Part shown: one piece after another, positions 48,291 to 60,034 of the stretch
Position numbering within the stretch: position 1 is the first letter of the stretch
Layout: each line of letters starts with the position of its first letter
DNA from: Mucilaginibacter aurantiaciroseus
Lineage (GTDB): Bacteria; Bacteroidota; Bacteroidia; Sphingobacteriales; Sphingobacteriaceae
Assembly (NCBI RefSeq): GCF_024055595.1
Contig: NZ_JAMXOF010000001.1
Span: 434,001 to 498,000, forward strand
Reading direction: 5' to 3'
Length of the DNA: 64,000 nt
Notes under the pieces: model-generated
What the model saw: the letters and a program-made list of their open reading frames with translations, nothing else
What the model was told of the DNA's origin: nothing
Database searches by the model: none
Translations under genes and position numbers: made by a program

Positions 48291-50690
48291 ATGAAGATAT
48301 CGTATAACTGGCTTAAAGAATTTATTGATACCGATAAAACCCCTCAGGAATTATCTACCATACTTACAGGTACCGGCTTAGAGGTGGAGAGCCTCGAGAA
48401 GGTGCAGGCCATCCCCGGCGGTTTAGAAGCCCTGGTGATAGGTTACGTTAAAGAATGTGTTGATCACGCCAACTCCGACCATCTGCATGTTACCAAGGTA
48501 GATGTAGGCACGGGCGAGGACCTGCAAATTGTTTGCGGGGCGCATAACGTTGCGGCAGGCCAAAAAGTAGTAGTGGCAACCGTGGGTACAACCATATACC
48601 CAACCGTTGGCGAGCCGTTCAGCATCAAAAAATCGAAGATCAGGGGCGAGGTATCCGAAGGGATGATCTGTGCCGAAGATGAGATAGGCTTAGGGCATGA
48701 CCATGCGGGTATTATGGTGCTTGATGCCGATGTTGCTGTAGGCACTTTAGCTAAAGATTACTTTAAGCTGAACGACGATTACCTGTACGAGATTGGCCTG
48801 ACCCCAAACCGTGCCGACGCGGCATCGCACCTGGGTACGGCACGTGATATTGCCGCTTTTTTAAAGCTGGGCATCAAAAAGCCCGATGTAAGCGCCTTTA
48901 AGGTTGATAGCGATACCAACCCTATACAGGTGGTGGTACAGAATGAAGCTGCCGCCCCAAGGTATAGTGGCTTAACTATCTCTGATATTAAGGTGGGCGA
49001 GTCGCCCGTGTGGTTAAAAGAGCGTTTGGCCGTAATAGGCGTGCGAAGCATTAACAACGTTGTAGATGTTACCAATTACATACTGCACGAACTTGGGCAG
49101 CCCCTGCATGCTTTTGATGCTGCTGCCATAACCGGCAACAAGGTTATTGTAAAGAATGTAACCGAAGGCACCGTATTTAAAACTTTAGACGATGTTGACC
49201 GTAAGCTAAGCGCCGATGACCTGATGATATGCAATGCCGATGAGGCTATGTGTATTGCCGGTGTGTTTGGCGGTGCAAAAAGCGGTGTAAGCGAAAGTAC
49301 TACCGGTATCTTTTTAGAAAGTGCTTATTTCAACGCTGTAGCGGTGCGTAAAACATCCAAAAGGTTTGGGTTAAAGACAGACGCCTCGTTCCGTTTTGAG
49401 CGTGGTACCGACCCGGATATGACCGTATTTGCCCTTAAACGAGCGGCCCTGCTCATACAGCAGGTAGCAGGCGGTAAGGTTACGTCAGAAATTTTTGACC
49501 ATTACCCGCAGCCGGTAGCGGGGTTCCCTGTCGAGATCACCTATAACACTATCGACAGGCTGATCGGTAAAGCCATTGGTAACGATACCATCAAAAGCAT
49601 TATTACCGCTTTGGATATTAAGATCGTTAACGAAACCACCGAAGGTTTATCGCTTGAAGTACCCCCGTACCGTGTGGATGTAACCCGCGATGTGGATGTG
49701 GTGGAAGAGATACTGCGCATTTACGGTTACAACAATATCGAGATCCCTACCCAGATCAGGGCGTCGCTGAATAATTCAGTTCGTCCCGAGAAAGATACCG
49801 TGCAAAACGTAATTTCCGACCTGCTGAGCGCGAACGGCTTTAACGAGATGCTGGCCAATTCGCTTACCAAACTGGCTTATTCGGATAACCTCGAAGCTGC
49901 CGTAAAAATAGTGAACCCGTTAAGCAGCGACCTGGATGCTATGCGCCAAACCCTGTTATACTCGGGTTTAGAGGCTATCGCCTATAACCAAAACCGCCGC
50001 AATGCCAATTTGAAGTTTTACGAGTTTGGCAAGGTGTATAACACCAAAGAAGATAAGTATATCGAAACACAACGTTTCAGCATTTTCATCACCGGCGCCG
50101 ATATCGCCGAGCAATGGAACCAAAAGCAAAAGCCGGTAACATTTTACAACCTTAAAGCTATTGTAGATGGTATTCTTAAGCGCCTTAAAATTACCGATGT
50201 GGTGGTTGAAGATAGCACTTGCAGCAAACTTGCCTTTGGTTTACAGTACATGCTTAACGGCAAGCAACTGGTTAAATTTGGGCAGGTAGGTGCAAACGCG
50301 TTAAAAAAGGTTGATGTAGATAAAGAAGTGTTTTATGCCGATTTTAACTTCGATGTGGTACTGAATGCCGTACGCAAGAATGTGATTGTTTACCAGGAAG
50401 TATCAAAGTTCCCGGCGGTGCGCAGGGATCTGAGTATGCTGGTAGATCTGTCCGTTACTTTCGGACAACTGAAGCAGATAGCCGGACGGACGGACAAAAA
50501 ACTGCTGAAAGAAGTAAATGTATTTGACGTTTACCAGGGTGATAAACTGCCTGCGGGCAAAAAATCTTACGCGTTAAGCTTTGTGCTGCAAGACACCGAA
50601 AAAACCCTAACAGATAAAGCAGTTGATGCCGTGATGCAAAAATTAATTTATAATTTAGGCAAAGAAGCAGGAGCGGAGATCCGTAAATAG
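48291..50690 (+). CDS. pheT: Phenylalanyl-tRNA synthetase beta subunit
   Basis: 799 residues, full length for the bacterial beta chain. Domains in order: N-terminal B1, a tRNA-binding OB fold (about 45-155, VTKVDVGTGEDLQIVCGAHNV), the B3/B4 editing region (about 215-400), a B5 domain, the inactive class II-like core, and the C-terminal anticodon-binding ferredoxin-like domain (FPAVRRDLSMLVD to the end). The partner pheS is elsewhere. The codons for residues around 730 (AGRTDKK) contain GGACGGACGGAC, identical to a repeat motif found in neighbouring gaps. Confidence 0.96.
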   Translation: MKISYNWLKEFIDTDKTPQELSTILTGTGLEVESLEKVQAIPGGLEALVIGYVKECVDHANSDHLHVTKVDVGTGEDLQIVCGAHNVAAGQKVVVATVGTTIYPTVGEPFSIKKSKIRGEVSEGMICAEDEIGLGHDHAGIMVLDADVAVGTLAKDYFKLNDDYLYEIGLTPNRADAASHLGTARDIAAFLKLGIKKPDVSAFKVDSDTNPIQVVVQNEAAAPRYSGLTISDIKVGESPVWLKERLAVIGVRSINNVVDVTNYILHELGQPLHAFDAAAITGNKVIVKNVTEGTVFKTLDDVDRKLSADDLMICNADEAMCIAGVFGGAKSGVSESTTGIFLESAYFNAVAVRKTSKRFGLKTDASFRFERGTDPDMTVFALKRAALLIQQVAGGKVTSEIFDHYPQPVAGFPVEITYNTIDRLIGKAIGNDTIKSIITALDIKIVNETTEGLSLEVPPYRVDVTRDVDVVEEILRIYGYNNIEIPTQIRASLNNSVRPEKDTVQNVISDLLSANGFNEMLANSLTKLAYSDNLEAAVKIVNPLSSDLDAMRQTLLYSGLEAIAYNQNRRNANLKFYEFGKVYNTKEDKYIETQRFSIFITGADIAEQWNQKQKPVTFYNLKAIVDGILKRLKITDVVVEDSTCSKLAFGLQYMLNGKQLVKFGQVGANALKKVDVDKEVFYADFNFDVVLNAVRKNVIVYQEVSKFPAVRRDLSMLVDLSVTFGQLKQIAGRTDKKLLKEVNVFDVYQGDKLPAGKKSYALSFVLQDTEKTLTDKAVDAVMQKLIYNLGKEAGAEIRK
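50448..50496. repeat. GTCC/GGAC motif inside pheT coding sequence
   Basis: CTGTCCG (50448-50454) and, downstream, the tandem GGACGGACGGACA (50484-50496) can pair by TGTCCG/CGGACA. It is read in frame as A-G-R-T-D-K-K where relatives usually have a Lys-Thr-Glu-like sequence (from memory). Confidence 0.5.
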
Positions 50691-50771: not shown

Positions 50772-51062
50772 ATGGCCTCAGTAGCAGAACAATTAAGTAA
50801 AGTTGTAGAAAAAACAGAGCGGTTAATAGAGCTTTGTGCTGCGTTGCAGGAAGAGAATGACCTGCTTAAACTGGAAAGTGAAGCATTAAATGTGGCCCTA
50901 AAAGCCAGTACAAACAAGACCAAGGACCTCGAAGAAAAGCTTCGTGTGTTAAAGCTGGCAAAGTCGTTTTCAGAAACAAATGAAAAAAGTGTTGACATTA
51001 AGCAAAAAATTAACGACTTTGTGCAGGAAATAGATAAGTGTATTGTATTGCTGAAAAAGTAA
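50772..51062 (+). CDS. Small coiled-coil protein upstream of zapA
   Basis: 96 residues, almost entirely helical heptad sequence (VVEKTERLIELCAALQEEND, LLKLESEALNVALKA, KTKDLEEKLRVLKLAKSF). No membrane segment. It lies between pheT and zapA in the same direction, 21 bases before zapA. The place and the coiled coil suggest a division-associated role like ZapB, but that is inference. Confidence 0.8.
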   Translation: MASVAEQLSKVVEKTERLIELCAALQEENDLLKLESEALNVALKASTNKTKDLEEKLRVLKLAKSFSETNEKSVDIKQKINDFVQEIDKCIVLLKK

Positions 51063-51083: not shown

Positions 51084-51377
51084 ATGGGAGAAATCTCAAT
51101 AAAAATAAATATTGCTGACAGAGTTTACCCCTTAAAGGTAAACATGGAAGAAGAGGAAATTATAAGACGAGCAGCTAAGCTGATCAACGACCGTATAAAA
51201 GAATATCAAGAGAATTACGCGGTTAGGGATAAACAAGATTTGCTTTCGATGTGTGTGCTGCATTATGCAACATCGTCATTAAAAGCGGATAAGAAAGTTA
51301 CTACGGATGATACCGAGGTAGCCGAAAAGGTTTATCAATTGGATCACTTACTGAACGATTTTTTTTCGAAACAATAA
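51084..51377 (+). CDS. zapA: Cell division protein ZapA
   Basis: 97 residues. GEISIKINIADRVYPLKVNM and EEEEIIRRAAKLINDRIKEY match the N-terminal globular part of ZapA, followed by a C-terminal helix (KQDLLSMCVLHYATSSLKA). ZapA promotes FtsZ filament bundling. Its start is 22 bases after the coiled-coil gene. Downstream is the structured RNA described next, which is the same arrangement as zapA-6S RNA in other bacteria. Confidence 0.92.
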   Translation: MGEISIKINIADRVYPLKVNMEEEEIIRRAAKLINDRIKEYQENYAVRDKQDLLSMCVLHYATSSLKADKKVTTDDTEVAEKVYQLDHLLNDFFSKQ

Positions 51378-51409
51378 CGTTCTTACATATAACAGAGCCA
51401 TTTTAAGAT

Positions 51410-51582
51410 TTAACCGCAGTTAAATTTTAAGTTTCACTATTAAAAACTTAACGCTTCAATATCTTCGGATTACAAAGAGGCATGCGTTGATCGTGTATTT
51501 AACGGTAACCCGTGATCCACTCCATCCGACAAGAAGTTTTAACAATACATGACACTTAGAAGTTTAGTTGCGGTTTTTTTAT
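51410..51582 (+). ncRNA. ssrS: Structured RNA, probable 6S RNA
   Basis: In the 224-base gap between zapA and rny, AACCGCAGTTAAA (51412-51424) pairs at all 13 positions with TTTAGTTGCGGTT (51563-51575), two of them G-U, and continues a few pairs inward; T5 follows. Inside are a TTAAAAACTT/AAGTTTTAA arm (51440-51449 and 51534-51542), CGGAT/ATCCG (51466-51470 and 51524-51528) and an ACGG/CCGT hairpin (51502-51513). A long rod with internal bulges and a poly-U end fits 6S RNA, which binds RNA polymerase. The zapA neighbourhood supports this. No covariance search was done. Confidence 0.6.
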
Positions 51583-51601: not shown

Positions 51602-53167
51602 ATGAACACCATATTATACATCATTATTGGGCTGCTCGCGGGCACCCCAACAGGAATTGTCATAGGGCGTTTCCTGCTACGTAAACTCTTTAAAGACCAG
51701 GAAGTAAATGCTCAGAACAAGGTAAAAAAGATCTTGAAAGACGCTGAGAACAACGCTGAGATACTTAAAAAGAACCGCCAGCTTGAAGCAAAAGAGAAGT
51801 TTTTGCAGATGAAAGCCGAGCATGAGCAGGAAGTAAACGCTAAAAACAACGTATTAAACCAACGCGAGAACGGCATCAAACAAAAAGAGCAATCTTTTAA
51901 CCAGAAGCTGGAAAACATGACCCGCAAGGAAACGGAAGTAGACAACGCGCGTAAAAAACTGGAAGCCCAAACCGATATCCTGATCAAAAAACAGGAAGAG
52001 GTTGACATACTGAAGAACCAGCATGTACAGCAATTGGAGACTATTGCCGGCTTATCAGCAGATGAGGCGCGCGATCAGTTGGTAGACAACCTGCGCGAAG
52101 AAGCACGCAGTAAGGCCATGGCGCAGATCAAGGATATTGTTGACGAAGCTAAGCTAACCGCTACCAAAGAGGCTAAAAAGATCGTTATCCAAACCATCCA
52201 GCGTACCGCTACAGAAAGTGCTATCGAGAACACGGTATCTATCTTCAATATTGAAAATGACGAGATTAAAGGCCGTATCATCGGTCGCGAAGGTCGTAAC
52301 ATCCGTGCGCTGGAAGCAGCAACCGGTATCGAGATCATTGTGGATGACACACCAGAGGCCATTATCCTTTCGGGCTTTGACCCGGTTCGTCGTGAGATCG
52401 CCCGTTTGGCCATGCACCGTTTGGTAACAGACGGACGTATCCACCCGGCACGTATCGAGGAAGTAGTTGCTAAAACCAAAAAGCAGATAGAAGAAGAAAT
52501 TGTTGAGATAGGCGAGCGTACCGTTATCGATTTGGGTATCACCGGGCTTCACCCCGAGTTGATCAGGATGGTAGGGCGTATGCGTTACCGCTCATCATAC
52601 GGGCAAAACCTGTTACAGCACTCGCGCGAGGTAGCAAACTTCTGCGCTACTATGGCAGCAGAACTTGGCTTAAATGTTAAATTGGCTAAACGCGCAGGTT
52701 TACTGCACGATATTGGTAAAGTGCCTGATGATAACCCGGAATTGCCACATGCAATTTTAGGTATGCAGCTTGCCGAGAAATATAAAGAACACCCTGAAGT
52801 TTGTAATGCCATTGGCGCCCACCACGATGAGGTGGAAATGACATCGATGCTATCACCAATAATACAGGTTTGTGACGCTATTTCAGGCGCAAGACCGGGT
52901 GCAAGGCGCGAAGTTGTAGAAGGTTACATCAAGCGCTTAAAAGAGCTTGAAGAGCTTGCATTATCGTACCCCGGTGTCGAAAAAACATTTGCTATACAGG
53001 CAGGCCGCGAATTACGCGTTGTGGTAGAAAGCGAAAAGATTAGTGATGCACAATCAGAGATCTTAGCGGCAGATATCTCCAACCGCATCCAGACAGAAAT
53101 GACCTACCCTGGTCAGATCAAGGTTACCGTGATCAGGGAAACCCGTTCGGTAGCGTTTGCCAAGTAA
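51602..53167 (+). CDS. rny: Ribonuclease Y
   Basis: 521 residues. An N-terminal membrane helix ([20 protein letters not shown]) is followed by a long coiled coil (about 30-200). A KH domain carries [20 protein letters not shown], and an HD domain carries [10 protein letters not shown] with the metal-binding His-Asp and [10 protein letters not shown]. RNase Y is the membrane-bound endonuclease that starts mRNA decay. Full length. The structured RNA lies directly upstream. Confidence 0.97.
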
Positions 53168-59968: not shown

Positions 59969-60000
59969 TTTTTAATAGATTTTAGCAATTTATATAGTAA

Positions 60001-60034
60001 CCCGCATCTTATTTTTAAGATGCGGGCTTTTTTA
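60001..60034 (+). terminator. Terminator of the GH31 gene
   Basis: CCCGCATCTTA (60001-60011) and TAAGATGCGGG (60016-60026) form a perfect 11-bp stem, followed by CTTTTTTT. Confidence 0.9.

Follow-up and report, generated by a model that had tools for sequence, protein, structure and literature searches.

In this study, we concluded that the gap between zapA and rny in the Mucilaginibacter aurantiaciroseus window (the whole 64-kb stretch of DNA that was analysed) very probably holds the 6S RNA gene of Mucilaginibacter, in its Sphingobacteriaceae version, and we place the probability of this reading at roughly 0.88. 6S RNA is the molecule by which bacteria hold RNA polymerase in check. The element is about 175 nt long and lies on the plus strand at 51406-51580, as delimited by a conserved alignment block, by matches of two covariance models (R1 and R2, described below) at 51406-51579 and by homology to 6S-Flavo, its 5' end being approximate. 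Current RNA databases have missed the element, which is an ordinary representative of a known kind of RNA and not a new kind.

Locus and architecture

The element is preceded by zapA (cell division protein ZapA; 51084-51377, plus strand), an open reading frame matching Pfam PF05164 at E 3.4e-19, and followed by rny (RNase Y; 51602-53167, plus strand), recognized by PF12072 and by its KH and HD domains, which bears out both neighbors named in the earlier note. The 3' end of the RNA lies 21 nt 5' of the rny start codon. Farther upstream than zapA are pheT (48291-50690) and a short coiled-coil ORF (50772-51062) for which the Pfam search gave no match. In beta/gamma-proteobacteria zapA is a known neighbor of 6S (PMC7641849), and the weight that the earlier note placed on this neighbor is now extended to Bacteroidia by the present loci.

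The segment 51406-51580 folds with a minimum free energy of -40.6 kcal/mol (z = -3.29 relative to dinucleotide-shuffled sequences). The closing stem pairs 51412-51432 with 51554-51575, both arms being supported by covariation. Its outer part is the helix from which a structured RNA had been proposed: 51412-51424 (AACCGCAGTTAAA) and 51563-51575 (TTTAGTTGCGGTT) pair at all 13 positions, with the two expected G-U pairs at 51419/51568 and 51420/51567. A run of seven T at 51574-51580 (GCGGTTTTTT in the relatives, kept in all or nearly all of them) leaves five T beyond the stem, just as described before, and with the closing stem it doubles as an intrinsic terminator. Inward of the 13 bp, the helix continues to about 51432/51554 and is followed by an internal loop, a short helix (51443-51448/51535-51540) and the apical arm. 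The 5' strand of the loop, or bubble (UUCACUAUUA, 51433-51442), is presumed to be the pRNA template side by analogy with known 6S RNAs. Next to it stands a conserved core, AAAACUUAACGCUUCAAUAU (51443-51462), which is the counterpart of AAACUCAACACU in 6S-Flavo and other families, and whose first six bases form one strand of the short helix, P2. The conserved region 51535-51553, around AAGUUUUAACAAUACAUGACA, supplies the 3' strands of P2 and of the bubble, with compensations from A-U to G-C in P2. Between the two P2 strands, the minimum free energy fold places a variable apical arm (51463-51534) of poorly conserved sequence. Both loop strands, 51433-51442 and 51541-51553, are nearly invariant; the fold puts some weak A-U pairs inside the presumed central bubble, and the bubble of flavobacterial relatives is more open than the one predicted for the window copy.

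The earlier estimate of 165-170 nt holds for the span from the closing stem to the T run (about 168 nt) and falls short of the roughly 175 nt reached when the conserved 5' AGATTT is included. With its closing stem and apical arm, 51406-51580 has the form of a 6S-type rod of about 160-200 nt. R1 and R2 also gave antisense matches (51412-51578, minus strand) in this near-palindromic rod. A minus-strand gene was rejected, and the element was assigned to the plus strand because the T run fixes its direction.

Conservation and covariation

The earlier note had called the 13-position pairing far beyond chance, a judgment that stands for its conservation with covariation and fails for the helix by itself. 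When the gap was shuffled with its dinucleotides preserved, a 13-bp helix with at most two G-U pairs arose in 5 shuffles out of 300, and 13 of 285 windows of 224 nt over the 64 kb contained one; alone, the helix is only moderately unusual. Covariation was tested on 44 more diverse sequences with a 28-pair structure made up of the closing stem, the inner stem and P2. In this set, 92.4% of the cells were paired, and changes on both sides occurred at 9 pairs (33 cells). These values were matched by 0-1 of 500 shuffles, and far lower values resulted when the strands were slid out of register. RNAalifold, applied to 46 sequences, likewise supported the closing stem, with six pairs changed on both sides. 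Conservation is strongest in UUUCACUAUUAAAAACUUAACGCUUCAAUA (5' side) and GAAGUUUUAACAAUACAUGA (3' side) rather than in the outer stem.

Distribution among relatives

A covariance model of the element (R1) was searched in genomes of Sphingobacteriaceae and of the order. It matched at a single place per genome in 100 Sphingobacteriaceae genomes out of 121, and for the order in 147 out of 151; where a few genomes gave a second match, this was the antisense of the identical place. At all 36 loci that were checked, zapA and rny flank the element. Among 80 loci collected by a ZapA search, those with both genes on the contig have a zapA-rny gap of 199-368 nt, and all of them carry the element. Two genomes of another family (f61) match R1 at E ~3e-5, also between zapA and rny. 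In several families of the class, zapA adjoins rny with a gap of less than 155 nt and the RNA is absent there (thirteen loci); their 6S RNA is therefore elsewhere or lost.

About 15 Mucilaginibacter species carry an imperfect palindromic insert of 65-100 nt, rich in AAAGC/GCTTT, between the RNA and a boxA-like motif that follows zapA. The extra 65-100 nt always lie between the zapA end and the RNA and never within the RNA, and the loci with the insert, nine of which were noted individually, keep both motif and RNA intact. Most Sphingobacteriaceae loci also keep a short GAGC string, at 51395-51398 in the window and about 10 nt 5' of the RNA, which possibly has a role in 5' end processing or as a start site.

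Homology to 6S-Flavo

The Infernal check that the earlier note had proposed, with the Rfam 6S and 6S-Flavo models, did not detect the window copy even at E = 10; neither these models nor Bacteroidales-1 had any match in the window at the gathering threshold or at E<=10. Matches to RUF2, bxd_4 and SCARNA7 in the gap (Rfam, E<=10) were rejected as chance. The combination that the earlier note regarded as contrary to its reading, a below-threshold score with an unconserved stem, was not found, because the stem is strongly conserved.

Elsewhere in the class, six of the seven Rfam 6S-Flavo matches fall within the zapA-rny gap; the seventh is the weakest and has neither zapA nor rny nearby. In one genome, the gap element is matched by both 6S-Flavo and Bacteroidales-1, in model searches and by cmscan alike. 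In other families the same gap holds an element that Rfam barely detects; its closing stem is C-rich and is accompanied by AAACUCAACACU, a variable arm, GRGUUU and a T run. We then used a held-out covariance model (R2), whose sequences came solely from Sphingobacteriaceae and f61 and included none of 6S-Flavo, against a 75-kb target of loci from other families. Its seven top-ranked matches all fall in zapA-rny gaps (E 8e-6 to 0.027), from seven genomes of six other families, and two of these loci are Rfam 6S-Flavo genes; the eighth match (E 0.32) is a Bacteroidales-1 element. The AAACUCAAC/GRGUUU core is common to all these gap elements, and their closing stem shows compensating changes. Homology to 6S-Flavo is supported because the element shares the zapA-rny position and is reached by the held-out model, and on the same two grounds the "likely 6S" of the earlier note gained support.

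The reciprocal search used a short covariance model of 12 sequences from other families only (R3). In the window, R3 did not find the window's own copy. In 86 kb comprising 21 Sphingobacteriaceae loci and two f61 loci, nine of nine matches at E<=1 lay inside the element, the best at E 0.013; R3 thus detects some relatives only, and weakly. Because R3 misses the window copy, yet its nine matches fall in the element, the sequence comparisons point to a relationship with 6S-Flavo that is real and at the edge of detection. Common ancestry with the 6S-Flavo genes is likewise indicated by the same locus, the held-out R2 matches and the common core, although the reciprocal R3 misses the window copy.

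Two other places in the window resemble parts of these RNAs. At 1065-1146, R3 gave a match (E 0.12) to a AAACUCAACGCU string, and the segment contains AAAACTCAACGCTTTTTAT between CCGC and GCGGG; no supporting context was found, and the match is probably due to chance. A further match, at 59994-60032, falls on the hairpin CCCGCATCT...AGATGCGGG with its T run, which is similar to the closing stem of 6S in other families; it was set aside as just a short terminator hairpin with similar stem sequence.

Comparison with known 6S families and other explanations

The element shares with 6S-Flavo (RF01685) the zapA-rny position, the architecture, the AAACUCAAC...GAGUUU core and the terminator-like closing stem. 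In contrast, the window copy lies below detection by the Rfam model, its core reads AAACUUAACGCUU, its apical arm is unrelated in sequence, and its bubble strands differ. Bacteroidales-1, or 6S-Bacteroidales (RF01693), comes from the same phylum, has a suggested 6S role and gives weak cross-matches to the gap elements of other families; however, its model is silent in the window, and in the Bacteroidales genomes examined zapA and rny do not occur within about 1.5 kb of it. Canonical 6S/SsrS (RF00013) is alike in length, closing stem, internal loop, apical arm and location downstream of zapA as in beta/gamma-proteobacteria, but it shows no sequence-structure match, and the downstream gene here is rny, not ygfA/EVE. 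The RF00013 model had matches in 0 of 99 genomes of the class. Published detections within the phylum include 6S RNA in Flavobacterium psychrophilum (PMC9723704) and 6S RNA together with pRNAs in Bacteroides thetaiotaomicron (PMC7366714); the phylum therefore uses the 6S system.

Several other explanations were considered. Since 21 nt separate the 3' end of the element from the rny start codon, and since the closing stem and T7 form a terminator, the element could be a cis-acting leader, that is, a terminator or attenuator in the rny 5' region setting the RNase Y level, for example by autoregulation. We regard this as improbable: in families without the element, zapA still stands beside rny, with gaps of 36-60 nt or a simple hairpin, no alternative antiterminator fold is evident, and 6S-Flavo, whose elements are homologous, is known as an RNA in its own right (Rfam type "Gene; sRNA"). 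It is even less probable that the gap encodes some other structured RNA, trans-acting or protein-binding, having only its position in common with 6S. Such an RNA would fit the low sequence identity to known 6S RNAs and the failure of every Rfam model to reach the element, but position, core motif and architecture are all shared with 6S-Flavo, and the held-out covariance match adds to them.

The least probable reading is a mere terminator, bidirectional or belonging to zapA, with a long stem and no functional RNA. Conservation is highest in the internal loop strands and not in the stem, the length of the apical arm is maintained, there is one copy per genome, and the homology exceeds terminator features, whereas the GC-rich stem end, the T run and the fact that 13-bp helices are not very rare are what this reading would explain.

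For the preferred identification as a 6S RNA, we have proposed a plausible model. The RNA is a rod of about 175 nt: its 20-bp closing stem ends in a T run, the strands of its internal loop are nearly invariant, and a short helix (signature AAACUYAACRCU ... GRGUUU) leads into the variable apical arm. Like the 6S RNAs to which it is homologous, it would accumulate as growth slows, mimic an open promoter and occupy RNA polymerase carrying the housekeeping sigma factor. The polymerase would then copy a short pRNA from the 5' bubble strand, and the RNA would be released. Expression of the element, its binding to RNA polymerase and pRNA synthesis are thus predictions from 6S homology.

A boxA-like motif after zapA

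Directly 3' of the zapA stop codon, at 51378-51389 on the plus strand, lies a boxA-like motif, CGTTCTTACATA, of the form CGTTCTT(T)ACATA, recognized by its conservation and by a match in the rRNA spacer. The motif (CGTTCTTT) occurs just past the zapA stop at 101 of 102 related loci; GTTCTT, mostly with C before it, was found in 78 of 79 relatives and at 23 of 23 further loci. The window copy, GTTCTTACATA, is one T short of the commonest form. Among distant families, the motif was counted by hand in eight of ten with the RNA in the gap, against none of 13 without the RNA (Fisher P 9e-5). In the same genome, GTTCTTTGACATA stands in the 16S-23S spacer, between tRNA and 23S, and matches the motif after zapA; it is also present in genomes of three families (f3, f4 and f52) and of two other Sphingobacteriaceae genera.

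boxA, the NusB/NusE site, otherwise serves mainly rRNA. Its consensus, GYTCTTTAANA, is gamma-proteobacterial, and the study that gave it left non-coding RNAs out of consideration by its own statement (PMC5725501). From the rRNA spacer match and this consensus, the motif is therefore read as a boxA in the transcript that makes 6S RNA, and its sequence makes 51378-51389 a putative site of NusB/NusE binding. Use of CGTTCTTT as a promoter is disfavored, because the spacing between it and the RNA ranges from 20 to 125 nt and there is no TA element at a fixed place before it; a scan for sigma-70-type promoters found nothing useful. Tentatively, and at slightly poorer than even odds, we suggest that the Bacteroidia 6S RNA is transcribed through the boxA after zapA, which would act in NusB/NusE antitermination or as an RNA-chaperone site loading Nus factors onto the polymerase. 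In a search of the literature we found no paper that reports boxA in combination with 6S RNA, and the conserved boxA-like motif ahead of 6S RNA looks new.

Implications

The present results fill an annotation gap: in the order, no fewer than 147 genomes out of 151 have a 6S RNA that the Rfam 6S models leave unreported in the genomes tested. An earlier computational prediction of the RNA in Sphingobacteriaceae may exist; Wehner et al. reportedly studied 6S distribution in 2014. The zapA-rny gap provides a positional rule for locating 6S in Bacteroidia. Furthermore, the conserved motif offers a way to test whether Nus factors are linked to 6S RNA expression, a link that is possibly a surprise for the specialist. 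If transcription through boxA is true, this would be the first boxA-dependent 6S RNA as far as literature searches show, and the output of a polymerase-inhibiting RNA would be tied to the same machinery that boosts rRNA synthesis.
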